From: Hydrogenovibrio thermophilus | Lineage (GTDB): Bacteria; Pseudomonadota; Gammaproteobacteria; Thiomicrospirales; Thiomicrospiraceae | Assembly (NCBI RefSeq): GCF_004028275.1 | Contig: NZ_CP035033.1 | Location: 2,352,501 to 2,416,500 of the forward strand | Reading direction: 5' to 3' | Length of the DNA: 64,000 nt | Part shown: positions 5,016 through 62,531 of the stretch, one piece after another | How positions within the stretch are numbered: position 1 is the stretch's first letter | How the letters are laid out: each line of letters starts with the position of its first letter | The notes under the pieces: model-generated | What the model was told of the DNA's origin: nothing | Seen by the model: only the letters and a program-made list of their open reading frames with translations | Databases searched by the model: none | Made by a program: the position numbers and the translations under genes

Positions 5016-5693
5016 TCAGTGGCCGAATAAGCGCGGTTGCCAATTTTCCAGTTTGCCGGACGCCAACCGCTTTTGCAACGTGCGATGCCAGGACGACGGC
5101 AGCGGCAAGTCCAATAAGGCTTCCAATTCAGAAACGTTTAAACCATCCCGATAAAACACCCGCATGATGCGCTCGATGCTCCAATCGGGATACGACCGCG
5201 CCAACAATTCGACCTCGTCTCCGGCCTGCACGTTTCCCGATTCCAACACACGCAAATACCACCCGACCTTCAGACTGTTCTGAACCTGTTGTGCCATATC
5301 CGCCACCCCGAAGCGCAGATTCAGTTTCCAGCAAGGCTGGCGTCCCTGCGACACCTCAAAACGGGCGGAACCGATCTGCCAAACATCCCCGAAACACACA
5401 TCGGATTCCACCAGGCCTGACACCGACAGGTTCTCCCCAAACGCACCAGGCCTGGCCAATAATGGCGAATCAATCTGGGTTTGCCAGAAAGCATAATGCG
5501 CCGCCGGATACACATGCACCGCTTTATCCGGGCCGCCATGCACACGCAAATCCGCTTGTTGATCTCCGACCAACCCCAAGGGTTCGGCCATCACCGGGCC
5601 GGACACCGGGTGTTTGTCAATGCCACTTTCCGCCGCCTCACCCAACGCTGCCACGCGTCCGACCAAAACCGCCGCCACTTTACCGATTATCAT
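5016..5693 (-). CDS. yiiM: MOSC domain protein, YiiM-like
   Basis: 225 residues. The MOSC core shows HGGPDKAVHVYPAAHYAFW, GAFGENLSVSG and the conserved cysteine context GRQPCWKLN; a C-terminal three-helix extension (WSIERIMRVFYRDGLN) is typical of the YiiM group. MOSC proteins bind a molybdenum cofactor or carry sulfur; E. coli YiiM belongs to the enzymes reducing N-hydroxylated bases, so a detoxifying Moco reductase is the likely role. A perfect CCAGGCCTGG copy at 5446-5455 reads Ala-Arg-Pro-Gly in the GAFGENLS approach loop. It is transcribed divergently from a MocR-type regulator. Confidence 0.85.
   Translation of the reverse strand: MIIGKVAAVLVGRVAALGEAAESGIDKHPVSGPVMAEPLGLVGDQQADLRVHGGPDKAVHVYPAAHYAFWQTQIDSPLLARPGAFGENLSVSGLVESDVCFGDVWQIGSARFEVSQGRQPCWKLNLRFGVADMAQQVQNSLKVGWYLRVLESGNVQAGDEVELLARSYPDWSIERIMRVFYRDGLNVSELEALLDLPLPSSWHRTLQKRLASGKLENWQPRLFGH
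5446..5455. repeat. CCAGGCCTGG repeat copy, within MOSC gene
   Basis: Perfect core. On the minus side it is followed by tgcgTTTggg. A 9-base relative (CCAGGCCTG) lies 26 bases before it at 5411-5419 in the same gene. Confidence 0.9.
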
Positions 5694-5774
5694 AATTCCG
5701 CCTTTTCCTCGTGAGAACTCGACACGCGACTCGCCCCAGTTGATAGTTTTGTTTTAATACAATAAACTACTTGT

Positions 5775-7076
5775 ATGGAATCATATAGAAAAACCCTCAA
5801 CGCCGCAAGCATCGCCAATCACTTGGAAACGCAAATCCAAAATGGCGACCTGCCACCCGGCACGCCGCTGCCCACTGTTCGTGAGCTGGCCACACGCATG
5901 TCGGTTAACCCCAGCACAGTGGCCACCGCTTATCGTAACCTGCGTGCCGCCGGAATGATTGTCACCAACGGTCGAAAAGGTTCTCAAGTGGCACCGCCAC
6001 CGGCGCAACTGGATTTGTCGGTCAGTTTTCCGACCGGACTGGAAGACTTCGCCAGCGGCAATGTCGACGTCGCTTTACTGCCAAAACCGGAAGCCGACTG
6101 GTTCAGCCAACAAACCGACCAAATCGGTTATGAAGCCAACCGTGACGACGACGCATTGTTGGCGTTATCCAAACAGTGGTTGGCGGCGCAACGGATTCCG
6201 CATGACAAAATCGGCTTTTTTTCCGGCACACTCGATGCCATGGAACGCATCCTGCGCCAGCGCGTCCGCCCCGGTGCGAGCGTTTTGGTGGAAGACCCTT
6301 GCTGGCCGCCGGTCATCGCATTACTGAAAAACCTCCACCTCAAAGCCATCCCGCTGGATTTGGACGAAGACGGCGCACGGGTGCCCGATGCATCGCATCA
6401 GGATGTGGCCGGTGTGATTTTGACCTTACGCGCCCACAACCCCACCGGCATCAGCCTGTCGCCGCAACGCTTCGAGGAATGGAAACAATTTCTGGAAGGC
6501 AACCCGAAAATCACCTTGATTATGGACGACTACTGGGGGCCGCTGTCCAAGCAGCCGCTGCCGGACTTGTCCGACGACTTACCGAAAAACTGGTTTTACC
6601 TGATGTCGGTCAGCAAAGCCCTCGGCCCCGATTTAAGACTCTGCATAGCCACCGGCAACACGCGCTTGATGGCAGAACTCAAACAGCACCAACTGGCCGG
6701 ACCACGCTGGGTGAGTTTGTTGTTACAACGCCTGACCGCCCACCTTTGGCAAAAAATGATCGACGACAACGCTTTCGACGCGGTCGCCCAGGAATACGAG
6801 AACCGCCGTCGGTTGTTTGTCCAAGCCATGCAAAATCATCAGATACGGCTTTCGGTTCGGGAAGGACTGCACTTCTGGGTGCCGGTGCAGGACGAAGCCC
6901 TCGCGTTACAGGTGTTTTCCGCGGAGGGCATTGCGGTGCAATCCGGCCAGGCCTTCCGCATCCGCACCTCAAAAGCAATTCGCATCAGCGTCGCACATCT
7001 GACCGGCGATAAAATCCCGCAAATCGCAGACCTCACTGCAAAAGCCATGAAAGCCACATCGCAAAGGGTGCTGTAA
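5775..7076 (+). CDS. MocR-family regulator: GntR-type winged helix fused to PLP aminotransferase-like domain
   Basis: 433 residues. Residues about 10-75 form a GntR winged helix (NGDLPPGTPLPTVRELA, VNPSTVATAYRNLRAAGM). The rest is a fold-type-I aminotransferase-like domain with AHNPTGISLSPQRF and the PLP-binding lysine in MSVSKALGPDLRL near residue 280. MocR proteins sense PLP, amino acids or amines and control neighbouring metabolic genes. The divergent neighbour is the MOSC gene, 81 bases away, so that gene or its own promoter may be the target; this is inference. The effector is unknown. Confidence 0.88.
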   Translation: MESYRKTLNAASIANHLETQIQNGDLPPGTPLPTVRELATRMSVNPSTVATAYRNLRAAGMIVTNGRKGSQVAPPPAQLDLSVSFPTGLEDFASGNVDVALLPKPEADWFSQQTDQIGYEANRDDDALLALSKQWLAAQRIPHDKIGFFSGTLDAMERILRQRVRPGASVLVEDPCWPPVIALLKNLHLKAIPLDLDEDGARVPDASHQDVAGVILTLRAHNPTGISLSPQRFEEWKQFLEGNPKITLIMDDYWGPLSKQPLPDLSDDLPKNWFYLMSVSKALGPDLRLCIATGNTRLMAELKQHQLAGPRWVSLLLQRLTAHLWQKMIDDNAFDAVAQEYENRRRLFVQAMQNHQIRLSVREGLHFWVPVQDEALALQVFSAEGIAVQSGQAFRIRTSKAIRISVAHLTGDKIPQIADLTAKAMKATSQRVL

Positions 7077-7078
7077 CC

Positions 7079-7657: not shown

Positions 7658-7681
7658 CGCGATGCATTCCTTAAAATTTGA

Positions 7682-7691
7682 CCAGGCCTGG
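7682..7691. repeat. CCAGGCCTGG repeat copy, intergenic
   Basis: Perfect core followed on the plus strand by ccaTTTTTacc. It lies in the divergent promoter region between the glycosylase-like gene and trpB. Confidence 0.92.
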
Positions 7692-7803
7692 CCATTTTTA
7701 CCATTCGACTATTTTCATCTTTCGCCGGCCAGTGTATCCTTATAGCCTTTGCAGACACAAGTTCAGCTTAACCAGAATCATAAAAACATCCGCAGGAGTC
7801 GAC

Positions 7804-9006
7804 ATGTCTTATTTGAAAAATTTCCCCAATGCCGAAGGTTATTTTGGAGACTTCGGTGGCGCCTTTCTGCCGCCGGAGCTGGAACCGCATTTCGCCGAAA
7901 TCAATCAGGCGTACCTGAACCTCGGGCGCTCGGCGGATTTTTTGAATGAGCTGAAATACATTCGCAAACATTATCAAGGCCGCCCCACACCGGTATATTA
8001 CGCCCGCAACCTGAGCCGAGAAGTCGGCGCGCATATTTACATGAAACGCGAAGACCTCAACCACTCGGGCGCGCACAAACTGAATCACTGCATGGCCGAA
8101 GCGCTGCTGGCCAAACACATGGGCAAAACCAAACTGATTGCCGAAACCGGCGCCGGTCAACACGGCGTGGCTTTGGCGACCGCCGCCGCCTATTTCGGGA
8201 TGGAGTGCGAAATCCACATGGGCGAAATCGACATCGCCAAGGAAGCCCCGAACGTCACCCGCATGAAATTGCTGGGCGCAACGGTCGTGCCGGTCTCGTT
8301 TGGCGGGCGTAGCCTGAAAGAAGCTGTCGATTCCGCTTTCCAATCTTACGTACCGCAAGCCGACACTGCTTTGTTCGCCATCGGTTCGGTGGTGGGGCCG
8401 CATCCCTTCCCGATGATGGTGCGCGACTTCCAATCCGTGGTCGGCCACGAAGCCCGTGAACAATACTTGGAAATGGTCGGCGAATTGCCGGATCAAGTCG
8501 GTGCCTGTGTCGGCGGCGGCTCCAACGCCATGGGCATGTTCGCCGGGTTCATCGAAGACGAAACCGTCACACTGAACGGCGTGGAACCGCTGGGCAAAGG
8601 CACCAAACTCGGTGAGCATTCCGCCACCATGACATACGGCAAACCGGGCATGATTCACGGCTTTAAATGCATGCTATTGTCCGACGACGAAGGCAACCCG
8701 GCGCCGGTTCACTCCATCGCCTCCGGCTTGGATTATCCAGGCGTCGGACCGGAACACTCCTTCCTGAAAACCGAAGGCAAGGTCAACTACCACGGCGTGA
8801 CCGACCAGGAAACCCTGGACGCCTTCTACAAACTGTCCAGCATGGAAGGCATTATCCCGGCCTTGGAAAGCTCGCACGCCGTGGCCTGGGCCATGAAGCA
8901 CGGCCGAGAGAATCCGGGCAGCACCCTGCTCATCAACTTGTCCGGTCGTGGCGACAAGGACATTGATTACGTTACCGAACACTTCGGTTTCGGCGAAAAC
9001 GCATAA
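7804..9006 (+). CDS. trpB: Tryptophan synthase beta chain (stand-alone TrpB)
   Basis: 400 residues from the ATG at 7804, preceded by GCAGGAG; the frame is open further upstream but that part is not TrpB-like. The protein condenses indole and serine using PLP. Visible active-site features: the PLP lysine in GAHKLNH, the catalytic glutamate in [11 protein letters not shown], the phosphate loop [10 protein letters not shown], the aspartate in [12 protein letters not shown] and NLSGRGDKD at the end. Lengths match TrpB. No trpA follows; the next gene is rsmJ, after a strong hairpin. HKLNH instead of the enterobacterial HKTNQ suggests a divergent branch or second copy. Whether it serves general tryptophan synthesis or indole salvage cannot be told here. 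Confidence 0.9.
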
Positions 9007-9956: not shown

Positions 9957-11753
9957 TTGTTTGACTCGATTGTACGACATAAGCGTCTACTGCTCCTGAC
10001 ACTGGGCCTATTGGTTCTGATTCAAATAACCAGTTACTATTGGATCAGCCGAATTAACGAGCAGATTGAAACCCTTCGCCACCAAAACATCGTCCAAACG
10101 CTTTCTCAGGACCTCTATCACCAAATTAGTGAAAAACAAGCGGCTTCCACGGCCATCGCGTTGACTCTGGCGAATGATGTCAGTCACCTGCTGGCCGAGC
10201 ACAACGACGTTCAATACCAGGCCTTCAACGATTTGATTGCGCAAATCACCCAAAAATCCAATTATAAAAATCTTTGGGTACAGGTCATGGATTCGGATGG
10301 CGACATCGTTTACCGAAACTGGACGAAAGAAAGTACCAACGATGCGCCTGTTTCTGAGCTGAAGTTGCTACAGGCTCCGCGAAAAGACATCATCACCGAT
10401 TCTTTCGATTTAACGATTCGCATCACCACACCGATTTTCCACCAGAAGCTACGCGTAGGTTTTCTGTGCTTAATTTCGCACTTCAATTCGATTCAACGCT
10501 ATTTTGAAGGCAAGCACATCCAAACCCTGGCCGTCGTGCCGCCCGAACTTGCGCAAACCATGCAACACCCGTTCAGCGAACACCGTAAAGGCGGTTTCTA
10601 TATCGCCAACCTGGACCCTAACCCGACGCTGATGAAGCAAATCACCGGCGCAGACCTACATCGTTGGACAAGCCAAAACGCCCGCCCCACGGTCTGGCAG
10701 GATAAACTGGTGGTTGCGATCCCGCTACGAAACCTGAATAAAGCACCACAGGGTACGCTACTGGCATTCTACCCCTTGGAAGCCACTCACCGCCTGGATG
10801 CCGGCGCGGAACTCTTAACCACCAAAAACATCACCTTAATCGCCAACATCACCCTGACATTATTATTGCTATCAGGCCTGGTCACTTTTCTCATTAAAAA
10901 ACAACGCGATTATTTCCAGCGCATCATTAATGCCGAAGAAGAAATCGTACTGGTATCGAATGGCGAACGTTTGATTGATGCCAACCAACAGCTCTACAAT
11001 CACTTTGATAATTTCCGTACCGACAAACGCGATTGCATTTGCGATTACTTTGTCGAAGAAGACGGATTCCTGCAAAAATACATGGGCGACCAACTCTGGC
11101 TGGACTATTTACTTGAACACCGGAACGATATTCACAGAGCCAAATGTGTCCTGCACGGAGAAACCTACATTTTCAAATTAAAGGCCCATACACTCCTACC
11201 TGGTAGCAATCTGGCTGTCGTGGTGCTGGTTGACATCACCGAGCTTGAAGCGCTCAGCGAACAACTGTTGGAACAATCCCGCATCGACGAGTTGACCCAG
11301 ATCGGCAATCGGCGCTTTTTCAACGATTACATGGAACAACAAATCTCTCTGGCGAAACGTCATCGCCACCCCTTATCATTGATTTTTTTCGACATTGACC
11401 ATTTCAAAAAGGTCAACGACGTTTACGGACACCAAACGGGCGATGTCGCGCTTCGTACCGTGGTCGACACCTTGTCGACACAGTTGCGCGAATCCGACGT
11501 GTTTTTCCGAGTCGGCGGCGAAGAGTTCATGATCGTGCTGGCACATCATCCACTCAATCAGGCTAAGGAAATCGCGGAACGGTTGCGCAAGCGAGTCGAA
11601 CGCATTCAGGAAGCATCTCTACCGCACCTCACCATCAGTTTGGGGGTGGCCGAACTGGATACCCATGAAACCCTGGAGCAATTACTGCACCGTATCGATC
11701 TGGCTTTATATGAGGCGAAATCAAATGGGCGAAATTGCGTATGCACGGCATAG
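9957..11753 (+). CDS. Membrane diguanylate cyclase (GGDEF) with periplasmic sensor domain
   Basis: 598 residues from a TTG start with AAAGGA upstream. One membrane segment at about 10-30, a periplasmic sensor of about 260 residues, a second membrane segment at about 288-310, a PAS-like region at 320-430 and a GGDEF domain from about 440. The active-site motif is RVGGEEFM (near 520), intact, with an RxxD inhibitory site five residues before it (RESD). It should make c-di-GMP in response to an extracytoplasmic cue. No EAL domain. A 9-base copy of the window repeat at 10873-10881 encodes part of the second membrane segment (SGLV). The next gene is another c-di-GMP enzyme 103 bases downstream. 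Confidence 0.92.
   Translation: MFDSIVRHKRLLLLTLGLLVLIQITSYYWISRINEQIETLRHQNIVQTLSQDLYHQISEKQAASTAIALTLANDVSHLLAEHNDVQYQAFNDLIAQITQKSNYKNLWVQVMDSDGDIVYRNWTKESTNDAPVSELKLLQAPRKDIITDSFDLTIRITTPIFHQKLRVGFLCLISHFNSIQRYFEGKHIQTLAVVPPELAQTMQHPFSEHRKGGFYIANLDPNPTLMKQITGADLHRWTSQNARPTVWQDKLVVAIPLRNLNKAPQGTLLAFYPLEATHRLDAGAELLTTKNITLIANITLTLLLLSGLVTFLIKKQRDYFQRIINAEEEIVLVSNGERLIDANQQLYNHFDNFRTDKRDCICDYFVEEDGFLQKYMGDQLWLDYLLEHRNDIHRAKCVLHGETYIFKLKAHTLLPGSNLAVVVLVDITELEALSEQLLEQSRIDELTQIGNRRFFNDYMEQQISLAKRHRHPLSLIFFDIDHFKKVNDVYGHQTGDVALRTVVDTLSTQLRESDVFFRVGGEEFMIVLAHHPLNQAKEIAERLRKRVERIQEASLPHLTISLGVAELDTHETLEQLLHRIDLALYEAKSNGRNCVCTA
10873..10881. repeat. Nine-base copy (CAGGCCTGG) of the repeat, inside GGDEF gene
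   Basis: TCAGGCCTGG differs by one base from the core, and is followed by tcacTTTTctc, keeping the T-tract. Confidence 0.7.
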
Positions 11754-11856: not shown

Positions 11857-14800
11857 ATGCCGATACCCCTGCCCATCGCGCGCGCTATCGCTCGTTTATC
11901 GCACCGAATCCAAAGCCGAACCCGCATGGCCAGTCAGACGTTGATGTTTACCGCATTAAGCCTGATTTACCTCACCAGTCATGCACAGCAAACCCTGACC
12001 CTCGGCGTTTACGCCTACCTCACGCCGGAAAAGGTTTACCAGCAATACCAACCGCTGGCCGATTACCTCAGCCAACAACTCGGTCATACCAATATTCAAC
12101 TGGCGGTACTCAACCACCGGGATCTGCGTCAGGCGTTGCGACAGGAAAAACTCGATCTGCTGCTTGTTAATCCGAGCCTGTATGAAATCGTCCGCAATGA
12201 AAACCGTTTGAGTGGCGCCATTGCCACACTGCAAACCAACTACAGCGGGCAACCGACAGCACAATTAGGCGGAGTGATCTTTACTCTGGCCACCCGACAA
12301 GACATTCAGTCCATTACCGATTTGTCGAAAAAAACCATTGCCACACCTTCCTTCAATAATGCAGGTGCCTACCGCATTCCGATTTATGAAACGCAACAAT
12401 TGGGAATCCCCTCCCAACAAATGAAGTTCCTGCGCGTCGGTCAGAACGACAAGGTGGTGGAAGCCGTCCTGAACGGCCAGGCCGACGCCGGTTTTGTCCG
12501 AACCGGGATACTGGAAAACATGATTGATCAGGGCCTGTTATCTCCGGACCAGATTACCGTGTTAAACGCCCGGCAGTTTGATCATTTTCCTTTCATGGTG
12601 TCCACGCCGCTTTATCCCGAATGGCCATTCGTGGCACTGACCCATGTGGATGACGCCATGGTGCGCAAACTCTCCGTTGCCTTGTTTTCCCTCACCCCGG
12701 ACAGTCCAACGTCTCAAGCCGCACGCATTGCCGGGTTTGTTCCACCACTGGACTACTTGCCGGTTGAAAATCTGCTGCGCGAACTGCACCTCGAACCGTA
12801 TGACAAACCACCCGAACTGACCTGGAACATGGTTTGGAAAAACTACGCCTTCGAAATTCTGGCGGCATTCATTTTATTCCTGGCTTTGATTGCCGCGTTT
12901 TTACGCATCAGCCTGCTCAGCCAGCGTATCGCCACGGCAGCCAATCGTATCCAGGCGCAATCCACTAAACTCAGTAATGTATTGCACGCCACCCACTCGG
13001 TGACCTGGGAATGGGACGTCCCTTCCGATAAAGTTCACTTCAACACCGATATGTGGTCGAAAATCATGGGCTACGACGTCCAGGCCTATGAAGAATTCAC
13101 CTTCGAAAACCGCCAAGAGCTCACCCACCCGGACGACCAAAAAGCCTTGCAAAGCGCTTTGCGTAATCACTTCAGCGGGGAAACCGATTTCTATCAGGTG
13201 GAGACCCGGATGCGTCACCAAAACGGCAGTTGGGTTTGGATTCTGTCACAAGGGAAAGTCATTGAATGGAGCGCCGACCAAAGACCTTTGAAGGTGTCGG
13301 GCACTCACACCGACATTACCCAAATCAAACAACAGGAAGCCCTGTTGGACTTCAAGTCCCAACGCGACCAGATATTGCTGAAATTGCCGGCTAATGTGGA
13401 TAATTTGTCCAAAAAATCATTGATTCGTTATGCCCTGAACTTGACGGAAGAACTCACCGAAAGCCGACTCGGTTTTGTGCGCATTCTGGATGAATTCACA
13501 CCGGACCAGCCACTCTCCTTCTGGTCCTCAGCCACATATGAACGTTTTTCGTCCGAGCAACTGGCACAGATCAAGCTGACGGAACGCACCTTTTGCCAAG
13601 CCGTCTTGCAGAACCGGAAATCGATGATTTTGAACGACGTCACCACCCTTGAAGACGCCGACTTTTCGGATGGTTTTACACCGAAAAAGCTATTGATCAT
13701 CCCTGTGGTCGCCAACCAGCAGGTCGTCATGATTTTAGGGTTGGCCGACAAATCAACAGCTTATTCCGACATGGACCAAGAAGCCGCCGAACTGATCGCT
13801 TATGAGCTCTGGCGCATGATTCAACGCAAACGCGACCAACAACAGATTGAATCCCAGCAAGAGCAATACGAACGTCTTGTCGACGAAATCGGCCGGGATT
13901 ATTGCGTTTTCAGCTTGGAGCCGGACACCGGCCGCATCACTTACATCAGTGACAGCGCCAAAGACATTTTCGGCCAACCCAAAAACGCCCTGCTCAAAAC
14001 CAACATTCTGGCGGGCATCCACTGGCAGGACGACAGCCAACAGAACCTGAAAAAAGCCCTCGACAAGTTAGTGTCCCAGCACGAAAACGAAAACACGCTC
14101 GACTTGACCTTCAACACACCGCAAGGCGACGAACGCGCCATCAAGGTCATGCAGCATACGGTGCTGGATGACCAGAGTCGCTTGACATCCATTGACGGTT
14201 TGATTGAAAACATCACCGATAAAATTCAAACCGAGCACGACCTGATTCAGGCCGCCAACGTTTTCCGCCACTCTCAAGAGGCGATCCTCATCACCGACCG
14301 CCAAGGTCGTATCCTCAATATCAACGATGCCTTCACCCGCATCACCGGCTACAGTAAAGAGGAAGTATTAGGTGAAACCCCACGCGTTCTCAGCTCGGGA
14401 AAACACGATAAAACGTTTTACGCCGAACTTTGGCGCGAACTGTTCGACCAAGGCACCTGGTCCGGCGAAATCTGGAACCGTCGTAAAAACGGCGAAATCT
14501 ATCCGGAAAAAATGACCGTCAGCTCGATTCTGGATGAAAACGGCTCGCCGAAAGAGTTCATCGCGCTGTTTTCGGACATCACCACCCAGAAAAAACAACA
14601 GTCGCAACTTGAGTACATCGCCCATTTCGATGCCTTGACCGGCCTACCGAACCGCACACTGCTGGCCGACCGTCTGAACCAGGCCATCACCTACTCCAAA
14701 CGCCACCAATTGAATCTGGCGGTGCTGTTCATCGACCTGGACGGCTTTAAAGCCATCAACGACCTTTACGGCCATCAAGCCGGTGACGAACTGCTGATTA

Positions 14801-16281
14801 CCATCGCCAAACGCTTCAAAAAGGCTTTGCGTGAAGAAGACACCATCGCCCGTATCGGCGGCGACGAGTTCGTGGCGGTAATTCTCGACATCGAAGATAC
14901 CGGCGAAACCGACGCCTTATTGCAACGCTTGCTCGAAGATGCCAATAAATCGATGACCTTCGAAGACAACCTGCTCAAGGTCTCCGCCAGTATCGGCGCC
15001 AGCTTCTATAACCAGCAAAACGATTTGGACGCCGACCAAATCATCCGTCAAGCCGACCAAGCGATGTATCAAGCCAAAATGAAAGGCAAAAACCAGGTGT
15101 ATGTGTTCGACGAAAAAACCCTCGGCAGCATGGCACAAACCCAGGAACTGATGGCTTTGGAACAAGGCGTCAAAAACGACGAGCTCCGCCTCTATTTCCA
15201 GCCGAAGATTCACCTGCGGGAAGGCCATGTACTCGGTTTTGAATCCCTGATACGCTGGCAACATCCGGAAAAAGGCCTGTTGTCGCCAGCCGCTTTCTTG
15301 CCATTGCTACGCGACCACCCGCTCAGCATCGACGTCGGCTTCTGGGTCATCGAAGCCGCCATGAAACAGATGCAGCAATGGAAAACACTCGGACTGGACA
15401 TCAACCTCAGCATCAACCTTGAAGGCGAACTGTTGCAGGAACCGGATTTCATTCCACGCTTGGGTGACGTACTGAACCGTTACCCGGACATTCCGGCGCG
15501 TAACCTGACGCTGGAGATATTGGAAACCTCCGCTCTGGAAGACATTTTCAGCGTCTCGAAAACCATGACGGAATGCAGCACCAAATTGGGCGTCAACTTC
15601 TCCATCGACGACTTCGGAACCGGCTATGCGTCTCTGACCTACCTCAAGCACCTGCCGGTCACGGAATTGAAAGTCGACCAAAGTTTCGTCAAAGACCTGC
15701 ACACCGAACCGCAAAGCTTGTCCATTATGGAGAGTATCATCGGCATGGGCGATGCCTTTAATCTGGACGTCATCGCCGAAGGGGTGGAAACCGACGAACA
15801 GGCCACCCTACTGCTCAAACTAGGCTGCAACATGGCACAGGGCTATCACATCAGCCGCCCCATGCCTCCGGCGGAAATCCCGGACTGGATAGCACAATGG
15901 CAACCGGCACCACACTGGCACCAAGTCGAAAAACTCGACAAACGGGATTTATCCCTGATTGCCGCCGCCACCGAACATCGCTCCTGGATCAACACCTTGC
16001 ATAAATTCGTGCACGACCAAGTCGACGCCCCGCCACCACTGGAGTTATCACGTTGCGGTTTCGGTCAATGGCTCAATGCCAAAGGGCCGGAAATGATTCA
16101 GGATACAGAACGACTGGAAGCGATTCATTTAGTGCACAGCCAGGTCCATTACCTGGGCGAATTGATCATCGAGCTCAAACGTCATGGCAAGCAGGAAGAT
16201 GCCATCGCCGAATTGCACCACCTCAACAGCATGAAAAACGAACTTTTGGCACACATCGACGCACTAGCAGACCAATTGTAG
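11857..16281 (+). CDS. Large GGDEF/EAL protein with N-terminal periplasmic binding domain, PAS/GAF array and C-terminal CZB zinc domain
   Basis: 1474 residues. Order: signal or anchor segment near 25-43; PhnD-type periplasmic binding domain about 44-300 (LGVYAYLTPEKVYQQYQPLAD); membrane segment about 331-352; PAS about 375-490; GAF-like region about 505-655; two PAS domains to about 920; GGDEF about 925-1085 with intact ARIGGDEF; EAL about 1100-1345 with ESL in place of EAL but the glutamate, IDDFGTGYAS, LKVD and AEGVET retained; and a C-terminal CZB domain with HRSW, CGFGQW and HLVHSQVH, the His/Cys pattern that binds zinc. The protein can both make and break c-di-GMP in principle. It looks like a sensor combining an external small ligand with internal zinc or redox state. 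Confidence 0.9.
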   Translation: MPIPLPIARAIARLSHRIQSRTRMASQTLMFTALSLIYLTSHAQQTLTLGVYAYLTPEKVYQQYQPLADYLSQQLGHTNIQLAVLNHRDLRQALRQEKLDLLLVNPSLYEIVRNENRLSGAIATLQTNYSGQPTAQLGGVIFTLATRQDIQSITDLSKKTIATPSFNNAGAYRIPIYETQQLGIPSQQMKFLRVGQNDKVVEAVLNGQADAGFVRTGILENMIDQGLLSPDQITVLNARQFDHFPFMVSTPLYPEWPFVALTHVDDAMVRKLSVALFSLTPDSPTSQAARIAGFVPPLDYLPVENLLRELHLEPYDKPPELTWNMVWKNYAFEILAAFILFLALIAAFLRISLLSQRIATAANRIQAQSTKLSNVLHATHSVTWEWDVPSDKVHFNTDMWSKIMGYDVQAYEEFTFENRQELTHPDDQKALQSALRNHFSGETDFYQVETRMRHQNGSWVWILSQGKVIEWSADQRPLKVSGTHTDITQIKQQEALLDFKSQRDQILLKLPANVDNLSKKSLIRYALNLTEELTESRLGFVRILDEFTPDQPLSFWSSATYERFSSEQLAQIKLTERTFCQAVLQNRKSMILNDVTTLEDADFSDGFTPKKLLIIPVVANQQVVMILGLADKSTAYSDMDQEAAELIAYELWRMIQRKRDQQQIESQQEQYERLVDEIGRDYCVFSLEPDTGRITYISDSAKDIFGQPKNALLKTNILAGIHWQDDSQQNLKKALDKLVSQHENENTLDLTFNTPQGDERAIKVMQHTVLDDQSRLTSIDGLIENITDKIQTEHDLIQAANVFRHSQEAILITDRQGRILNINDAFTRITGYSKEEVLGETPRVLSSGKHDKTFYAELWRELFDQGTWSGEIWNRRKNGEIYPEKMTVSSILDENGSPKEFIALFSDITTQKKQQSQLEYIAHFDALTGLPNRTLLADRLNQAITYSKRHQLNLAVLFIDLDGFKAINDLYGHQAGDELLITIAKRFKKALREEDTIARIGGDEFVAVILDIEDTGETDALLQRLLEDANKSMTFEDNLLKVSASIGASFYNQQNDLDADQIIRQADQAMYQAKMKGKNQVYVFDEKTLGSMAQTQELMALEQGVKNDELRLYFQPKIHLREGHVLGFESLIRWQHPEKGLLSPAAFLPLLRDHPLSIDVGFWVIEAAMKQMQQWKTLGLDINLSINLEGELLQEPDFIPRLGDVLNRYPDIPARNLTLEILETSALEDIFSVSKTMTECSTKLGVNFSIDDFGTGYASLTYLKHLPVTELKVDQSFVKDLHTEPQSLSIMESIIGMGDAFNLDVIAEGVETDEQATLLLKLGCNMAQGYHISRPMPPAEIPDWIAQWQPAPHWHQVEKLDKRDLSLIAAATEHRSWINTLHKFVHDQVDAPPPLELSRCGFGQWLNAKGPEMIQDTERLEAIHLVHSQVHYLGELIIELKRHGKQEDAIAELHHLNSMKNELLAHIDALADQL

Positions 16282-16287: not shown

Positions 16288-16297
16288 CCAGGCCTGG
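16288..16297. repeat. CCAGGCCTGG repeat copy, intergenic
   Basis: Perfect core, seven bases after the stop of the large GGDEF/EAL gene. The minus side continues atgTTTcta. Confidence 0.9.
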
Positions 16298-16331: not shown

Positions 16332-16829
16332 TTAATCCTCAGACGATGCCATCCGCTTGCGGTGCGCCGCCAGCAACCGATCAAGATGATTGGCAAACGC
16401 CTGACGATCTTTTTGATTCAAGGGCGGCGGACCGCCACCGACTTCCACTCCGCTGGAACGCATGGACTCCATAAAATCCCGCATCGCGAGCTTCTGCTGA
16501 ATGGTGCTGGTTTGATACAGCTCCCCTCGAGGATTCAAAGCATGAGCGCCTTTGGCGATCACTTCCGCCGCCAGCGGAATATCGGCCGTGACCACCAAAT
16601 CGCCGGGCGAAACCCGCCGGACGATTTCATTGTCCGCCACATCGAAGCCTTTCGCCACCTGCAAAAAATGCAACCAAGGTGAAGACGGCACGCGTATGAC
16701 ATGATTCGCCACCAACGTCGTCGGGCATTCGGTGCGCACTGCGGCTTTGAACAGGATCTCTTTAATCACGGCCGGGCAAGCGTCCGCATCGACCCAGATA
16801 TGCATTCCCTGCAATTGAGACGACACCAT
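16332..16829 (-). CDS. yaiI: YaiI/YqxD (DUF188) family protein
   Basis: 165 residues, or 157 if the second ATG ([11 protein letters not shown], 16805) is used; the family usually starts there. The N-terminal [12 protein letters not shown] and the segments [15 protein letters not shown] and ALNPRGELY are diagnostic of the UPF0178/YaiI family, a PIN-like nuclease fold whose substrate is not known. It starts one base after the upstream membrane-protein gene ends, so the two are co-transcribed. Converges with the large GGDEF/EAL gene. Confidence 0.88.
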
Positions 16830-49958: not shown

Positions 49959-50055
49959 CGTCAAAAAATACGAGTTCGTTACAGGTTGTTGGAGTATTCA
50001 CTTAGCTGTTCTGAAACAACCCGCGTCGGTTACTTCTTTACATTTTCGTCATTAC

Positions 50056-50147: not shown

Positions 50148-50157
50148 CCAGGCCTGG
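50148..50157. repeat. CCAGGCCTGG repeat copy, intergenic
   Basis: Perfect core, followed by tggTTTTTcgg; the minus side continues ccaTTTgg. Confidence 0.93.
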
Positions 50158-50227
50158 TGGTTTTTCGGTTTGTTTGACAGCTTTATGAAAGGCGCGGATT
50201 CGGCATGATTTTTTCAAACCGCATGGC

Positions 50228-50233
50228 TATAAT
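50228..50233 (+). promoter_or_regulatory. Possible -10 element of pgm
   Basis: Perfect TATAAT, 44 bases before the pgm start, with TG close upstream but no clear -35 at the right distance. Confidence 0.4.
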
Positions 50234-50276
50234 GAAACCAATCGTTGCACAAAATCACTTACTAGAAGGATGCGCC

Positions 50277-52727: not shown

Positions 52728-54173
52728 TTAAGAAGAGCAACTCAGTTGCAGCCCTTTTTGTTCCGGGCTTGGCGGTTTCTGAAATTCCGCCAGGCCTGGG
52801 TGTTCTTCGAAAGGTGAATGCAGCGCTTCCACCCACTGTTCTAACGGTTGATAATCACCATTTTCGGCGGCTTCGATAATGCCTTGTGCAATGTAGTTCC
52901 GCAAGACGATGGCCGGATTGACGGCCAAAATCCGTTGCTGGCGTTCCGATTCGGAAATGCCTTCCTGCTGCAAGCGGGCATCGTAACGCTGGAACCAATC
53001 GACAAAGGCGCCGGGTTGGTTCAATAACGTCATCAATTCACCTTCATCCGGTTGGTTCCATTTCGCCAAGCGGCGGAAAAACAAACTGAAATCCACCCGA
53101 TGCTGATCCATCAACACCAATAAATCGCCAATCAGGTTTTTATCGTCGGGCTGTACGGTATGCAATCCGATTTTACAATTCATCTCATCGATGTACTGGC
53201 GATTATAGGTTTCCACAAAGGCTTCCAAGGCTTCGTTTTGCGCGGCTTCGTCCAACACTTTATCGAAGGCGTGCGCCAGCAGTTGGCAATTGGTGACACC
53301 GATTTTCGGTTGCTGATTATAAGCGTAACGCCCTTCGTAATCGGAATGATTGCAGATGTACTCGATTTGAAAATCGTCGAAAAAGGCATAAGGCCCGAAG
53401 TCGAAGGTTTCGCCGAGAATGGACATGTTATCGGAATTCATCACCCCGTGATTGAAGCCCACCGCTTGCCATTTCGCCATCAGCACCGCGGTGCGCTCGC
53501 AAACGGTTTTCAACAAGGCGGCACTGCGTTGCGGCTCTTCTAGCGACTGCAATTCCGGGTAATGATGTTCCACCACAAAATTGGTCAGGAATTCAAGGGT
53601 GGCCGGGCCTTTGGAGGCGGCCCACTGAAAATGCCCGAAACGGATGTGGCTGGGCGTGACACGCATCAAGCTGGCGCGCGGTTCGAAGGTTTCACGCTGC
53701 ACTTGTTCGTCACTGGTGGCGATGGATAAGGCGCGCGTAGTGGGCACGCCCAGCCCGAACAAGGCTTCGGACGCCAAGTATTCGCGAATCACCGAACGCA
53801 AAACCGCCCGGCCGTCACCGCGCCGGGAATAAGGCGTGCGCCCGGCGCCTTTCAGGTGAAAGTCCCAGGCCTGGCCGTTTTTGTCTTCCCAACGCCCCAG
53901 CAACAATCCGCGGCCATCGCCCAAATCCGGGTTGTAATAGCCGAACTGGTGACCGGTGTATTTTTGTGCCAGTGGTTGCAAGTCGAACTCGGCCAAGCTG
54001 GCATCCTCCAATTGCCCGGCGGTGAGCGCAAGCAATTGTTCGTCACTCAAGTCGCAATCGATTTCCTGCATCAGCGCCCGGTTGACCGCGACGAGACGCG
54101 CGTTTTGCTGCGGCTCCGGCCAGACGGGTTGGAAAAAGGATTTCGGCAATTCGAGATACGGGTGCTGTAACAT
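52728..54173 (-). CDS. selO: Protein adenylyltransferase SelO (YdiU)
   Basis: 481 residues. A pseudokinase that transfers AMP to Ser/Thr/Tyr of redox proteins. Seen: QKYTGHQFGYYNPDLGDGR, HLKGAGRTPYSRRGDGRAV, and the catalytic-region motif GFNHGVMNSDNMSILG, plus IDFGPYAFFDDF-type DFG context (FDFGPYAF). The C-terminus ends in SCSS, as in bacterial SelO. Two perfect repeat copies lie inside the gene: 53865-53874 (reads NGQAWD) and 52790-52799 (reads HPGLAE in the variable tail). A small tandem repeat lies just upstream of the gene. Confidence 0.93.
   Translation of the reverse strand: MLQHPYLELPKSFFQPVWPEPQQNARLVAVNRALMQEIDCDLSDEQLLALTAGQLEDASLAEFDLQPLAQKYTGHQFGYYNPDLGDGRGLLLGRWEDKNGQAWDFHLKGAGRTPYSRRGDGRAVLRSVIREYLASEALFGLGVPTTRALSIATSDEQVQRETFEPRASLMRVTPSHIRFGHFQWAASKGPATLEFLTNFVVEHHYPELQSLEEPQRSAALLKTVCERTAVLMAKWQAVGFNHGVMNSDNMSILGETFDFGPYAFFDDFQIEYICNHSDYEGRYAYNQQPKIGVTNCQLLAHAFDKVLDEAAQNEALEAFVETYNRQYIDEMNCKIGLHTVQPDDKNLIGDLLVLMDQHRVDFSLFFRRLAKWNQPDEGELMTLLNQPGAFVDWFQRYDARLQQEGISESERQQRILAVNPAIVLRNYIAQGIIEAAENGDYQPLEQWVEALHSPFEEHPGLAEFQKPPSPEQKGLQLSCSS
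52790..52799. repeat. CCAGGCCTGG repeat copy, inside selO tail
   Basis: Perfect core; minus side continues cggaaTTTca, plus side gtgTTcTT. Confidence 0.88.
53865..53874. repeat. CCAGGCCTGG repeat copy, inside selO
   Basis: Perfect core followed by ccgTTTTTgtc. Confidence 0.92.
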
Positions 54174-57245: not shown

Positions 57246-57674
57246 TTATTTGACTTCCACCTTTTTGGTCTCGGCACTGCGTTCCTTTTTCGGCAGCACA
57301 ACTTCCAGCACGCCGTCTTCCGAACTGGCGGATACGTTTTCGGCATCCACATTATCCGGCAGGGCAAAGCTACGCTCGAACTTGCCGTAACTGCTTTCCA
57401 CGCGGTAATAGTCTTCGTCCTTGACCTCTTCCTTGGTTTTACGTTCACCGGAAATGGTCAGACGATTTTCTTTCACTTCCACATGGATATCGTCTTTTTT
57501 CACACCGGGTAAATCCACTTCGATGTGATAAGCGTAATCCCCTTCTCGTGTATTGACGGTCGGTGAAAACCCAGCCACATTCGATTCCGTGGGTTTCGGC
57601 ATCATTTTTTGCAGCCGGTTTTCCAAATCCCGCAATTCACGAAACGGTTCCAACGTTCTTAAAAACATACTCAT
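57246..57674 (-). CDS. Hsp20/alpha-crystallin small heat-shock protein
   Basis: 142 residues from the ATG at 57674, which has AAGGAGGG five bases upstream; a longer frame to 57719 is less likely. The alpha-crystallin domain shows AYHIEVDLPGVKKDDIHVE, NRLTISGERK, SYGKFERSFALP and the closing GVLEVVLPK, followed by a short charged tail. It prevents aggregation of unfolding proteins, without ATP. A near-perfect sigma32 promoter lies 51 bases upstream. Confidence 0.95.
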   Translation of the reverse strand: MSMFLRTLEPFRELRDLENRLQKMMPKPTESNVAGFSPTVNTREGDYAYHIEVDLPGVKKDDIHVEVKENRLTISGERKTKEEVKDEDYYRVESSYGKFERSFALPDNVDAENVSASSEDGVLEVVLPKKERSAETKKVEVK

Positions 57675-57724
57675 CGCACAACCCTCCTTATTAAAGAGAA
57701 CAATACAACTTTCATTCAACGGTT

Positions 57725-57856: not shown

Positions 57857-57866
57857 CCAGGCCTGG
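57857..57866. repeat. CCAGGCCTGG repeat copy, intergenic
   Basis: Perfect core followed by ccacTTTTctt. Confidence 0.92.
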
Positions 57867-57896: not shown

Positions 57897-57925
57897 TTGG
57901 ACACTTTCGGCACTCCGGCTATACT
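57897..57925 (+). promoter_or_regulatory. Sigma70-type promoter of the thioesterase gene
   Basis: TTGGAC, 17-base spacer, TATACT; 32 bases before the ATG at 57957. Confidence 0.65.
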
Positions 57926-57956
57926 GAATCACAGATACGTTTACTGCGGAGACGCC

Positions 57957-58424
57957 ATGACCGATTCCACCCATACGCCGAAAGCGCTAAAAGCACTGGA
58001 AACGCTTTTGCATCAAGACATTCCGCTCACCCGGTCCATGGGCTTGCAGGTCATGGAGGCCACCGCCGACTCCCTGCGTTTACGCGCGCCTTTGCAAAAC
58101 AACATCAACCACAAAAGCACCGCTTTCGGTGGCAGCCTGTACGCCACGGCCGTGCTCACCGGCTGGGGATTGATTCATCTCGCCCTCACCGAACACGATT
58201 TACACGGCCACATCGTCATTCAGGAAAGCCACACCCGTTTTTTGAAACCGGTGAAAGCCGACATCGAAACCCGTTGTCGATTCGAATCCGAACCGCAATT
58301 GGCGACCTTTCTGAAAATGTACCGCCGAAAAGGCCGCGCCCGCATTCAATTGACCACGGAAATATACAATGAAGCCCAGGAGCTGGCGACGGTGTTTGAA
58401 GGCCAATATGTGGTGCACCGCTGA
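57957..58424 (+). CDS. YiiD-type thioesterase domain protein
   Basis: 155 residues from the ATG at 57957 with CGGAGA before it; the frame is open 20 codons earlier but lies within the promoter. Hotdog-fold thioesterase of the YiiD C-terminal type: LTRSMGLQVMEATADSLRL, LQNNINHKSTAFGGSLYATAVLTGW and SHTRFLKPVKADIE. Family members hydrolyse acyl-CoA or acyl-ACP, but substrates are not known. Here the acetyltransferase half found in E. coli YiiD is missing, as in most relatives. Confidence 0.87.
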   Translation: MTDSTHTPKALKALETLLHQDIPLTRSMGLQVMEATADSLRLRAPLQNNINHKSTAFGGSLYATAVLTGWGLIHLALTEHDLHGHIVIQESHTRFLKPVKADIETRCRFESEPQLATFLKMYRRKGRARIQLTTEIYNEAQELATVFEGQYVVHR

Positions 58425-59446: not shown

Positions 59447-61447
59447 ATGATCTCCATCCGCCGCTTCTTTATCACCGCTATCGTCGCTCTGGTTCTGGTT
59501 TTCTACGGAGTGTTCTTATATTACTTCCTCAACGACCAGCAAAAGAAAACCGACCTCATTCTGGAAAACATCCGCCACGACCTGTCGGAAACCGCTTACG
59601 TCGTTTCCACGGAAATGGCCACACCGCAAGAATTGCGCGAGTTCAAGTCTTTTCTGCACCGTAAAGTCGCCAACAATCCACTGGTCGCGGCCATGGCGAT
59701 TGCGTCGGGCAGCAAAATCCTGATTACGACCGAACACGATATCCGTTCCGCGCCACCGAAAAAGAACACCCAGGACAAACTGAAAGGCTTATCGGCACAT
59801 GAAATGTTGCGCTACGATATTTATGAAACCGATATTCCGTATTTCATCCAGAACCAACCGGCGTATTTGAAGCTATATCTGTATATCGACAAAGCCTATC
59901 TGGAAAACTATTTCGCCGAAAACACCACCAATTCACTGCTCTTTTTCGGCGTGGTGCCGTTACTGCTGCTCGGCTTGCTGTGGGGGCTGCTGAAACGCTT
60001 CGTCACCAACCCGTTGGAACTGTTACGCCAGTACGCCTATTACCAGTCGGAAATTCCAAAACGCTTCAAGCTACGTGAACTGGAATACATCCGCGCCTCC
60101 ATGGTGCAGACCTTTACCCGCCTGGACGAAGAAAAAAGCGAATTGTATCGCCTGGCCCGAACCGACAACCTTTCCGGCCTCGCCAACCGAAACCATCTGA
60201 ATGAACGCTTGAACTGGCTGATTTCCGAATTCTCCCGATCCGGACAGGAATTCGCCCTGCTTTTCATGGACTTGGATAATTTCAAAACCGTCAACGACAC
60301 CCTGGGCCATGAAGTCGGCGACAAACTGTTGCGCAATGTTTCCAGCCTCATCAAACAGGTCTTGCGCGACTACGACATCATCGCCCGTGTCGGCGGCGAC
60401 GAATTCGTCATCGTCGTCAACCACCACGGCAACGAACACGAGCTCATCAATATCATCCAACGCGTCATCGAAAAAATCAGCGACGTGCATTTGGTGGACA
60501 ATCATCCCGTTAAAGTGTCCGCCAGTGTCGGCGTGGTGCTGTACCCGAAAGACGGCCAATCCATCACCACCCTGATGAAAAACGCCGACATCGCCATGTA
60601 CGAAGCCAAAAACGCCGGTAAAAACCAATTCAAATTCTTTACCGAATCCCTGCATCAGCAGCTGGTGCATGAAATCGAATTGGAAAACAACATGCAACGC
60701 GCTCTGGACAACGGCGAATTTGAACTCTATTACCAGCCGAAAATCTCCGTCACCACCGGCCAAGTGACCGGCGCTGAAGCCTTGATTCGCTGGATTGACC
60801 CGAACAAAGGCGTGATTACACCGGACCGATTCATACCGTCGGCGGAAAAGTCCGGCTTGATGGTGCCATTGGGCGACTGGGTACTGGAAACGGCGGTACG
60901 CCAGCAAATCGACTGGAAAAAGCGTGGATTGGGTGACTTCCAAGTGTCCGTCAACCTGTCGCCGGTGCAACTGATCAACAATCACTTTGAAGAAAAACTC
61001 AATCGACTCATTCAGGAAAGCGGCATCACCCCCAGCAAGCTCGACGTGGAAATGACCGAATCGCAGTTCATGGAAAACTCCGAGCAAAACCTCAGCCTGT
61101 TGCACGCCATCCAACAAAAAGGCATTTCCATCTCGCTGGACGACTTCGGTACCGGCTATTCCTCACTGGCGTATTTGAAAAAATTCCCGATCAACACCCT
61201 GAAAATCGACAAAACCTTTATGGACGATTACGACACCGAATCCGGTGCGATTTTCATCGAAACCATTATCAAGATTGCTCAGACACTGAATCTGAATGTC
61301 GTGGCCGAAGGCATCGAACATCCGGAACAACTGGATTATCTGGTGAAGACGGGCTGCGAAACCTATCAAGGCTTCTTCTGTTCGCGGCCATTACCGGCGG
61401 CGGAATTTGAAAAGTTCCTGACGATGGAAAAGAGTTGCTGCCACTGA
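59447..61447 (+). CDS. Membrane GGDEF/EAL enzyme
   Basis: 666 residues. Membrane helix about 6-28, periplasmic part of about 130 residues, second helix about 165-187, a HAMP-like linker, GGDEF (about 240-400) with intact RVGGDEFVIV near 315, and EAL (about 415-655) with GAEALIRW, VNLSPVQL, MTESQFME, LDDFGTGYSSLAYLKK, LKIDKTF and AEGIEHPEQ. Both activities look possible. It starts at the stop codon of the binding lipoprotein gene, so it should receive a periplasmic signal through that protein. No third gene follows; sdhE converges. Confidence 0.93.
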   Translation: MISIRRFFITAIVALVLVFYGVFLYYFLNDQQKKTDLILENIRHDLSETAYVVSTEMATPQELREFKSFLHRKVANNPLVAAMAIASGSKILITTEHDIRSAPPKKNTQDKLKGLSAHEMLRYDIYETDIPYFIQNQPAYLKLYLYIDKAYLENYFAENTTNSLLFFGVVPLLLLGLLWGLLKRFVTNPLELLRQYAYYQSEIPKRFKLRELEYIRASMVQTFTRLDEEKSELYRLARTDNLSGLANRNHLNERLNWLISEFSRSGQEFALLFMDLDNFKTVNDTLGHEVGDKLLRNVSSLIKQVLRDYDIIARVGGDEFVIVVNHHGNEHELINIIQRVIEKISDVHLVDNHPVKVSASVGVVLYPKDGQSITTLMKNADIAMYEAKNAGKNQFKFFTESLHQQLVHEIELENNMQRALDNGEFELYYQPKISVTTGQVTGAEALIRWIDPNKGVITPDRFIPSAEKSGLMVPLGDWVLETAVRQQIDWKKRGLGDFQVSVNLSPVQLINNHFEEKLNRLIQESGITPSKLDVEMTESQFMENSEQNLSLLHAIQQKGISISLDDFGTGYSSLAYLKKFPINTLKIDKTFMDDYDTESGAIFIETIIKIAQTLNLNVVAEGIEHPEQLDYLVKTGCETYQGFFCSRPLPAAEFEKFLTMEKSCCH

Positions 61448-61470: not shown

Positions 61471-61480
61471 CCAGGCCTGG
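61471..61480. repeat. CCAGGCCTGG repeat copy, intergenic
   Basis: Perfect core, cggaTTTgg on the plus side and acgTTTTTgg on the minus side. Confidence 0.93.
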
Positions 61481-61497
61481 CGGATTTGGCTATTGAC

Positions 61498-61797
61498 TCA
61501 AGCCGATAAATAACGCGAACGAATCGCCTGAATAAACGGTTTAAAAATGTCAGGCGTTGCGCCAGACCCGTCCGAATCCGGTTGCACCAACCACTCAAAC
61601 AACGTCTGATCATTTTCCGCCAACAACGTTTCCAAAATTTCCATTTCCGCCACTTGCGATGGAACTTCCGGACTTAAATCCCGGCAATACGCCGAGAGCA
61701 AATGTTCGACTTCGGCATTACCGCGGCGGCAATTCAGTTGCAATCGTTTCCATTGCAGTTGGCGCTGTTCGAGGCTATCCGGCATCGTTTCTACCAT
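61498..61797 (-). CDS. sdhE: FAD assembly factor SdhE (CptB)
   Basis: 99 residues from the ATG at 61797; a GTG at 61809 is in frame. The family core is QWKRLQLNCRRGNAEVEHLL, in which RGN/RGxxE is the hallmark, followed by YCRDLSPEV. SdhE helps insert covalent FAD into SdhA. It lies just after sdhB, with 5-17 bases between depending on the start, so sdhA-sdhB-sdhE is one operon. Confidence 0.9.
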   Translation of the reverse strand: MVETMPDSLEQRQLQWKRLQLNCRRGNAEVEHLLSAYCRDLSPEVPSQVAEMEILETLLAENDQTLFEWLVQPDSDGSGATPDIFKPFIQAIRSRYLSA

Positions 61798-61814
61798 CGT
61801 TTCCGCCACCTTTT

Positions 61815-62531
61815 TTAATCCAACTGTTTTTCAACCATCAAGCTTTTCAGCTCATTGATGGCCTGACTCGGGTTCAACCCTTTCGGGCAACTGGCGGTGC
61901 AGTTCTGGATATTACGACAGCGGAAGGTTTTAAACGGATCGTCCAAGGTTTCCAATCGCTCGCGCGTGGTGATGTCACGGCTGTCCACCACAAAACGCCG
62001 CGCCGCCAACAAGGCGGCCGGGCCGTGAAACTTATCCGGGTTCCACCAGAAAGACGGGCAACTGGTCGCACAACAACCGCACAGAATGCATTCGTAACTG
62101 CCATCGAGTTTTTCCCGCTCTTCGGGGCTTTGCAGGAACTCATGGTCCAAATCAACGTTTTGACCAGGCCTGGTCGCTTTCAGGAAAGGGTCCACCGCGC
62201 GGTAATGGTCGTAAAACAATTCCATATCGATAATCAAATCGCGAATCACCGGCAAGCCCGGTAACGGTTTCAACACCACCGGATCGCGTAGGCTGGACAT
62301 TCGCGTAATGCAACTCAAATGGTTCTCGCCGTTGACGTTCATGCCGTCCGAGCCGCACACGCCTTCCTTGCAGGAACTGCGAAACGCCAGCGTCGGGTCT
62401 TGTTCGCGTAGCTTATCCAGCGCTTCCAGCAACATCATGTCGTCGCGAATCTCCGCATCCGGCAACTCATAATCTTGCATGTAAGGCTGCTCATCGACTT
62501 CCGGGTTGTAACGATAAATGGAAAACCGCAT
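61815..62531 (-). CDS. sdhB: Succinate dehydrogenase iron-sulfur subunit SdhB
   Basis: 238 residues. The [2Fe-2S] motif SCKEGVCGSDGMNVNG has Asp at the fourth ligand position as in E. coli, the [4Fe-4S] motif is CILCGCCATSCP, and the [3Fe-4S] part CRNIQNCTASCPKGLNP. It passes electrons from FADH2 in SdhA to quinone. A repeat copy (62164-62173) falls in the linker between the two domains (residues about 118-124), giving LKATRPGQNV where E. coli has a shorter segment. Confidence 0.95.
   Translation of the reverse strand: MRFSIYRYNPEVDEQPYMQDYELPDAEIRDDMMLLEALDKLREQDPTLAFRSSCKEGVCGSDGMNVNGENHLSCITRMSSLRDPVVLKPLPGLPVIRDLIIDMELFYDHYRAVDPFLKATRPGQNVDLDHEFLQSPEEREKLDGSYECILCGCCATSCPSFWWNPDKFHGPAALLAARRFVVDSRDITTRERLETLDDPFKTFRCRNIQNCTASCPKGLNPSQAINELKSLMVEKQLD
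62164..62173. repeat. CCAGGCCTGG repeat copy, inside sdhB linker
   Basis: Perfect core in a 14-bp palindrome, followed by tcgcTTTcag. Reads Ala-Thr-Arg-Pro-Gly on the gene strand. Confidence 0.9.

Follow-up and report, generated by a model that had tools for sequence, protein, structure and literature searches.

A recurrent 10-base palindrome in Hydrogenovibrio thermophilus, its altered forms in related species, and a possible role in DNA uptake

Why should one perfect 10-base palindrome, CCAGGCCTGG, stand at 20 places in 64 kb of a bacterial chromosome? The question is raised by positions 2352501-2416500 of the Hydrogenovibrio thermophilus genome (NZ_CP035033.1, a single contig of 2,612,894 bp, here called G000), the 64,000-nucleotide stretch that we refer to as the window. 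The GTDB lineage of the organism ends in the family Thiomicrospiraceae, and NCBI places Hydrogenovibrio in the Piscirickettsiaceae, Gammaproteobacteria. Together with the altered words of related species, CCAGGCCTGG looks like a self-recognition tag for DNA uptake in marine sulfur oxidisers, if uptake is borne out; by its genomic hallmarks, it is probably the core of a DNA uptake sequence.

A first-pass annotation of the window had listed 19 perfect copies. The word is present at every one of these positions, and the list omitted a twentieth copy, at 4902-4911. CCAGGCCTGG is the top 10-mer of the window with the strands pooled, the runner-up among palindromic 10-mers having 2 copies, and 100 dinucleotide-preserving shuffles gave a mean of 0.04 copies and a maximum of 1. 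The suggestion that the word is enriched genome-wide was borne out as well, the count lying far from the Markov expectation. The whole genome (2.61 Mb) holds 673 copies and none of the reversed control word, and a 464-kb sample, consisting of 20 evenly placed 20-kb pieces and the window, contains 133 copies where an order-4 Markov model predicts 1.7 (the model counts cover both strands, 266 versus 3.39, and were halved). The enrichment is not limited to the window, as each of the 20 pieces carries 2-8 copies (dispersion 0.40, lower-tail p 0.009). One-base near-copies are few (64, of which 41 are changed at the outer base pair), and symmetric double changes occur in at most 1 copy each in the same sample. 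A large genome-wide excess of a short word, which is a hallmark of uptake sequences, is thus a property of CCAGGCCTGG.

Neisseriaceae and Pasteurellaceae are described as the only families known to have words for the uptake of self-DNA (PMC12616744, 2025). The hallmarks of the uptake signal sequence (USS) and the DNA uptake sequence (DUS) of these families are a strong consensus, many copies, a spacing more regular than random, a non-insertional origin, a bias towards non-coding DNA that still leaves numerous copies in genes, inverted pairs in terminators, and clade dialects with an inner core (PMC1626085, PMC12616744, PMC3630211); in the USS, the core is accompanied by A/T-rich segments at intervals of about one helical turn (PMC1626085, PMC12616744). 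Most of these hallmarks can be recognised here; three, namely the regularity of the spacing, the helical placement of the tracts and an origin of copies by base change, only in part. No report of uptake sequences in Hydrogenovibrio, Thiomicrospira or Thiomicrorhabdus was found in the openly licensed PubMed Central literature, and one may exist elsewhere. A portion of the openly licensed papers that contain CCAGGCCTGG was surveyed, and none in that portion deals with a bacterial genome signal, in agreement with the first-pass annotation, which knew of no earlier description.

Copies were called coding or intergenic using a crude open reading frame (ORF) map, by which 86.4% of the 464-kb sample is coding. 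In the window, 9 of the 20 copies are intergenic on this map; the copy at 7682 is probably a tenth, because the TrpB match of its ORF starts only at residue 54, and the total then agrees with the ten intergenic copies originally counted. All four of the 9-base relatives noted at that time were also found. The copies and near copies in the window are as follows.

262-270: 9-base near copy CAGGCCTGG.
4902-4911: CCAGGCCTGG, within ORF 4531-5001 (+); the copy absent from the earlier list.
5411-5419: 9-base near copy CCAGGCCTG.
5446-5455: CCAGGCCTGG, within ORF 5016-5693 (-).
7682-7691: CCAGGCCTGG, nominally in the first codons of the TTG-started ORF 7678-9006 (+, trpB-like); probably intergenic.
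10873-10881: 9-base near copy CAGGCCTGG.
16288-16297: CCAGGCCTGG, between converging ORFs 11857-16281 (+) and 16332-16829 (-).
20091-20100: CCAGGCCTGG, within the recQ-like ORF 19832-21673 (-).
23607-23616: CCAGGCCTGG, between converging ORFs 22434-23543 (+) and 23617-24594 (-).
27656-27665: CCAGGCCTGG, within ORF 26032-29160 (-, RND efflux permease family).
32356-32393: hairpin made of intergenic CCAGGCCTGG (32370-32379) and 14 perfect palindromic bp per side, after ORF 31417-32316 (+).
33538-33547: CCAGGCCTGG, within ORF 33203-33838 (+).
34540-34549: CCAGGCCTGG, within ORF 33838-35211 (+, TRAP transporter large permease).
37457-37472: intergenic CCAGGCCTGG (37460-37469) with 3 palindromic bp per side, after ORF 35309-37423 (+).
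39015-39023: 9-base near copy CAGGCCTGG.
43905-43930: intergenic CCAGGCCTGG (43913-43922) with 8 palindromic bp per side (GAAAACGG-core-CCGTTTTC); terminator-like.
44883-44892: CCAGGCCTGG, within ORF 43945-45045 (-, TRAP substrate-binding protein).
47277-47304: intergenic CCAGGCCTGG (47286-47295) with 9 palindromic bp per side (AAAAAACCG-core-CGGTTTTTT), between converging ORFs; terminator-like.
50148-50157: CCAGGCCTGG, between diverging ORFs 49623-49964 (-) and 50205-51920 (+).
52790-52799: CCAGGCCTGG, within ORF 52728-54173 (-, SelO/YdiU family).
53865-53874: CCAGGCCTGG, within the same ORF 52728-54173 (-, SelO/YdiU family).
57857-57866: CCAGGCCTGG, between diverging ORFs 57246-57719 (-) and 57897-58424 (+).
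61471-61480: CCAGGCCTGG, between converging ORFs 59447-61447 (+) and 61498-61809 (-).
62164-62173: CCAGGCCTGG, within ORF 61815-62531 (-, succinate dehydrogenase iron-sulfur subunit).

In the 464-kb sample, 69 copies are intergenic, 62 are coding and 2 lie at an edge, which corresponds to a 7.0-fold intergenic enrichment. The intergenic copies lie near gene ends (44 of 70 at most 50 bp from the 3' end of a gene), and at least 5 extra palindromic bp per side were observed in 23 of 70 intergenic versus 2 of 63 coding copies, those at 32370, 43913 and 47286 of the window included. As in known uptake sequences, non-coding DNA is thus preferred although numerous copies lie in genes, and inverted repeats occur in terminators. 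All three frames are used by the coding copies, unevenly (29, 23 and 11; p 0.018). The longest of the first 99 gaps between copies is a 33-kb copy-free stretch, G000:C1:322110-354962, for which about 0.14 gaps of such length are expected genome-wide; a weak ComEC-family match is located inside it, at 324180.

On either side of the palindrome there is an excess of T at +4 to +8, and a weaker A/T peak can be observed at +12 to +14. At least four T in the five positions +4 to +8 were found on one or both sides of 79 of 150 coding copies (G000 and its close relative G009 pooled) and in 99 of 123 intergenic copies, and 2.8% of control words in genes reach this level per side. As the flanking tracts are also found on copies inside genes, they are not just parts of terminators.

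The word is strongly conserved. In the samples of G000 and G009, 94.6 kb could be aligned, with an identity of 90.6%. Of the 29 G000 copies in this alignment, 28 are unchanged in G009 (12/12 coding and 16/17 intergenic), and in the reverse direction 28/28 are unchanged, while other 10-mers are identical in 50% of coding and 53% of intergenic cases (p ~3e-7 for the conservation of the word). In the sole changed copy, the G009 word is interrupted by an insert of 18 bp and is not missing. Twelve G000 copies could be aligned to a more divergent genome, G008 (70.6% identical): 5 are the same, 5 differ by 1-7 substitutions and 2 are gapped in a poor alignment. Because these differences are mostly substitutions, copies seem, from these few sites, to arise by base change; no clean empty site was observed at the 29 copies aligned to G009 or the 12 aligned to G008.

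The recQ orthologue of window ORF 19832-21673 is split in G009 by a Mu-like prophage of about 35 kb (G009:C1:67633-102845), an island with genes for a Mu-like transposase, portal, F, I, terminase and tape-measure proteins. This one island contains 3 copies of the word against about 10.7 expected from the surrounding 105 kb (p 0.006, Poisson; p 0.013, conditional).

Among the 62 family genomes, 26 have at least 200 copies of CCAGGCCTGG. They are distributed over the genus of the window (7/11) and the genera that we designated g3 (9/32), g6 (9/9) and g4 (1/1), with no such genome in g2 (n=4), g5 (n=1) or g7 (n=4). Of 369 genomes drawn from the class, 365 are outside the family, and each of these contains at most 46 copies. 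Relatives with 0 or 1 copies of CCAGGCCTGG, Hydrogenovibrio marinus among them, bear related words, for example AAAATCTGCCAGGTTGGGG. In order to survey such dialects, k-mer counts of 27 sampled family genomes were compared with an order-4 model, and two or three words stood out in each relative; G016 and G017 (1-2 kb each) and G006, G030 and G032 (by pattern only) were omitted from the count. The palindrome or the form ACCAGGCCTG[G/C] was found in 12 genomes and another related word in 8; 4 (G011, G014, G020 and G023, 13-26 kb each) offered too little sequence to call, and no enriched word was detected in the samples of G012, G018 and G024 (60-100 kb each). The dialect words are listed below.

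G001 and G010: AAAATCTGCCAGGTTGGGG.
G003: AAAATCTGCCAGGCTGGGG.
G001, G010 and G003, common form: AAAATCTGCCAGG[T/C]TGGGG, the H. marinus-type word; asymmetric, up to about 19 bases, with an A-tract.
G007: AAAATCGCCAGGGGTGGT, asymmetric.
G029: AACAGGCCGGGT and ACTCAACAGGCCGGGTA, asymmetric.
G031: TACCGGCCGGTA, a palindrome.
G021 and G025: ACAGGCCTG.
G015 and G022: the palindrome form with a looser end.

C[A/C]GG is common to every dialect word, and related words are carried by 20 of the 27 sampled family genomes, so that dialects with a shared inner core, another hallmark of uptake sequences, can be observed here. Whole-genome searches point in the same direction: ATCTRCCAGGYTGGG reaches 339 copies in G001, 288 in G003 and 289 in G010, with none or one in each of the remaining 52 of the 55 genomes searched, and ACCGGCCGGT was counted 1025 times in G031 and no more than 15 times in any of the other 61 family genomes. 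The AAAA tract of the H. marinus-type word is intact at 48 of 51 sites, including 16 of the 18 in genes. In a tree of RecQ (15 genomes, a single gene, midpoint root, 6 of 12 inner branches open), G001, G003 and G010, which have the TTGGGG/CTGGGG word, form one clade (100/100). Genomes bearing the palindrome sit on several separate branches, and for this reason the palindrome is likely to be an older state than the other dialects.

Some further words and copies were noted during this survey. One-base near copies are raised in G015 and G022, both of which lack PilT (ratios of 1.64 and 2.50, versus 0.13-0.75 in other word-bearing genomes); we do not claim decay of the word in these two genomes, as almost all of these near copies are changed at an outer base and a variant word fits equally well. 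Nine viral-contig stretches have one copy each of the H. marinus-type word AAATCTRCCAGGYTGGG. G004 contains a 19-base word starting CACGCAGGCGGCTTAGAAA, repeated about 18 times in 80 kb and probably a clustered array, and in G013 the pair AGGCTAAAGCCT and CGAAGGCTTTAG is a second enriched word alongside the palindrome.

The genes for DNA uptake were then considered. ComEC (TIGR00361, curated cut-off) was searched for in 34 family genomes and exceeds the cut-off in all 23 that bear a dialect (15/15 palindrome-rich and 8/8 with another dialect). Of the 8 undecided genomes, G014, G016 and G020 have ComEC, G011, G017, G028 and G023 have matches below the cut-off, and G027 has no ComEC match; G024, with no word in its sample, has only a match below the cut-off. 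In G029, the ComEC matches form two pieces separated by about 37 kb of the same contig (G029:C1:50689-51309 and 88072-89325), as if an insert had split the gene. PilT is over its cut-off in 52 of the 62 family genomes. Below the cut-offs, G000 has a secretin of 620 aa (840 kb) next to a PilT-family-like ATPase frame of 563 aa (842 kb), which we take to be parts of an MSHA-type pilus. Of the eight prepilin-like genes of G000 over the cut-off, five (551-553 kb) resemble type II secretion pseudopilins; the other three lie at 637-641 kb.

If CCAGGCCTGG is the core of an uptake sequence, a surface protein of a DNA-uptake pilus would recognise free double-stranded DNA by binding to the core and to the A/T tracts beside it; ComP of Neisseria, a minor pilin, offers an analogy for such a candidate receptor. 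Fragments bearing the word would preferentially enter, traverse ComEC as single strands and recombine into the chromosome. Because such fragments would be taken up more, alleles carrying the word would spread and the word would accumulate, by point mutation, across the shared chromosome, where it would be kept intact and be rarer in newly arrived foreign DNA. Intergenic copies would additionally serve as the middle part of terminator hairpins. Where the preference of the receptor shifted, the word would shift along with it, giving rise to dialects.

It is important to mention that a number of observations weigh against this explanation. The density of CCAGGCCTGG, 1 per 3.9 kb, is about a quarter of the printed USS/DUS figure of about 1 per kb, and the changes in near-copies fall mainly at the outer base (41/64), as printed for HIP1, the highly iterated palindrome of cyanobacteria. 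The first 99 gaps fit an exponential distribution (Kolmogorov-Smirnov p 0.10, or 0.048 without the one 33-kb gap), and the second A/T peak lies only about 8 bases past the first, short of a full helical turn. The H. marinus-type word has a mild strand bias (p 0.13, 0.011 and 0.045). Dialects share gene-end positions no more than chance allows (1/23 and 2/22 ortholog pairs), and on these counts a switch of dialect in place, at the same gene ends, is unsupported. With regard to the machinery, ComEC is complete and PilT present in G012 and G018, yet no word was found in 60 and 100 kb of their sequence; ComEC accompanies every word but is therefore insufficient alone. G000 (673 copies) and G009 (677) have no PilT match over the cut-off, and since PilT is lacking in 7 of 26 palindrome-rich genomes versus 3 of 36 others, PilT does not track the word. 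PilQ is over its cut-off in none of the 20 family genomes searched, G000 included, so that the type IV pilus with PilT and PilQ expected of an uptake-sequence bearer was not found over the cut-offs in G000. In addition, the portion of the openly licensed literature consulted contains no transformation report for Hydrogenovibrio.

The main rival explanation is a HIP1-like palindrome without any uptake role, where a resident methyltransferase and mismatch repair would bias mutation toward the word, or a methylation-linked process would use it. CCAGGCCTGG is indeed palindromic and holds two CCWGG sites and AGGCCT, its near-copies differ chiefly at the first or last base as in HIP1, the G031 word TACCGGCCGGTA is palindromic too, and some cyanobacterial strains swap HIP for other palindromes (PMC4390886). 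The first-pass annotation had presented the word as an undescribed genome signal and had left a methylation role open; the genome-wide signal was upheld, and the methylation reading was weakened, as 7 of 10 palindrome-rich genomes examined, G009 among them, have no C5-cytosine methylase match. On the same evidence we reject methylation of the C5 type, to which the search was confined, as a necessary cause. Five sampled genomes moreover have asymmetric words (about 19 bases with an A-tract in G001, G003 and G010, and those of G007 and G029), and the A/T tracts, the non-coding preference and the hairpins would be left unexplained. We consequently regard a HIP1-like origin as unlikely.

A site bound at intervals along the chromosome by a nucleoid, chromosome-folding or repair protein would be consistent with the rather even spacing in the 20 samples, the genome-wide spread and the strong conservation of both coding and intergenic copies. 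Full turnover of the word within one genus and its absence from the G012, G018 and G024 samples would nevertheless be unusual for a core function, and the 20 samples show no local clustering (2-8 copies each), which makes this explanation decidedly improbable. It is very improbable that CCAGGCCTGG is merely a favoured hairpin core of intrinsic terminators, as could be suggested by the long palindromic extensions of 23 of 70 intergenic copies and the 44 of 70 within 50 bp of a gene 3' end. The asymmetric dialect forms no hairpin on its own, the extension is below 5 bp in 61 of 63 coding copies, and coding copies are conserved (12/12) and flanked by A/T tracts; a terminator-only reading was rejected because 62 of 133 copies are within ORFs. 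The least probable explanation, a transposed miniature repeat similar to repetitive extragenic palindromes or miniature inverted-repeat transposable elements, would fit a palindrome of high copy number, but was rejected because no clean empty sites were seen in the alignments with G009 (29) or G008 (12), where 5 of the 12 alignable G008 sites are the same, 5 substituted and 2 gapped in poor alignment, and neighbourhoods of copies differ beyond the short flanking tracts.

Apart from the palindrome, the window encodes three large GGDEF/EAL proteins in 64 kb (11857-16281, 35309-37423 and 59447-61447), one of them carrying a fused phosphonate-type binding domain together with PAS, GAF and CZB domains.

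A wider proposal can be made, for and against which we see the balance as about even: that a third bacterial family has its own uptake-sequence system. It may have begun as a symmetric palindrome read either way and become a long one-sided tag in one Hydrogenovibrio clade, with at least seven dialects splitting sulfur- and hydrogen-oxidising species into mating groups. In G000 the system would do without PilT, so that its receptor would belong to a pilus of another kind than in Neisseria and Haemophilus. Such a family would consist of free-living chemolithoautotrophs, not of animal commensals or pathogens, and a third case would make it testable whether uptake words serve self-selection or are the by-product of a biased receptor. 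Dialects within one genus, together with wordless genomes that have the channel gene, would serve as natural replicates in a search for the receptor by co-variation, and the dialects would predict which vent species can swap genes.

Three known systems can be compared with CCAGGCCTGG. Cyanobacterial HIP1 (GCGATCGC) is likewise a short palindrome in great excess, in coding and intergenic DNA, whose near-copies vary at the ends and whose place is taken in some strains by other palindromes (PMC4390886). Orphan methyltransferases are associated with HIP, whereas 7 of 10 rich genomes here lack a C5 methylase match; some dialects here are also long and asymmetric, and the enriched word is palindromic, as HIP1 is, in G000 but not in G001, G003, G007, G010 or G029.

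The DUS of Neisseriaceae, which is read by the minor pilin ComP, resembles the words described here in its clade-following dialects with a small shared inner core, in its hairpin or terminator pairs and in its loss from some relatives (PMC3630211). DUS is described as having no flanking tracts (PMC1626085), whereas CCAGGCCTGG has them; unlike in that system, no PilQ match reaches the cut-off in the 20 family genomes searched, and no ComP homologue was identified here.

In comparison with the USS of Pasteurellaceae, CCAGGCCTGG belongs to another family, is by eye unrelated in sequence and occurs once per 3.9 kb; in most genomes its core, a perfect palindrome of 10 bp, is flanked by a tract on either side. 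The two are alike in having hundreds of copies, a strong core, A/T-rich flanks, a preference for non-coding DNA together with coding copies, subclade variants and inverted repeats in terminators, and CCAGGCCTGG shares in part the mostly even spacing and, as far as the few aligned sites show, the non-insertional origin of the USS (PMC1626085, PMC12616744).

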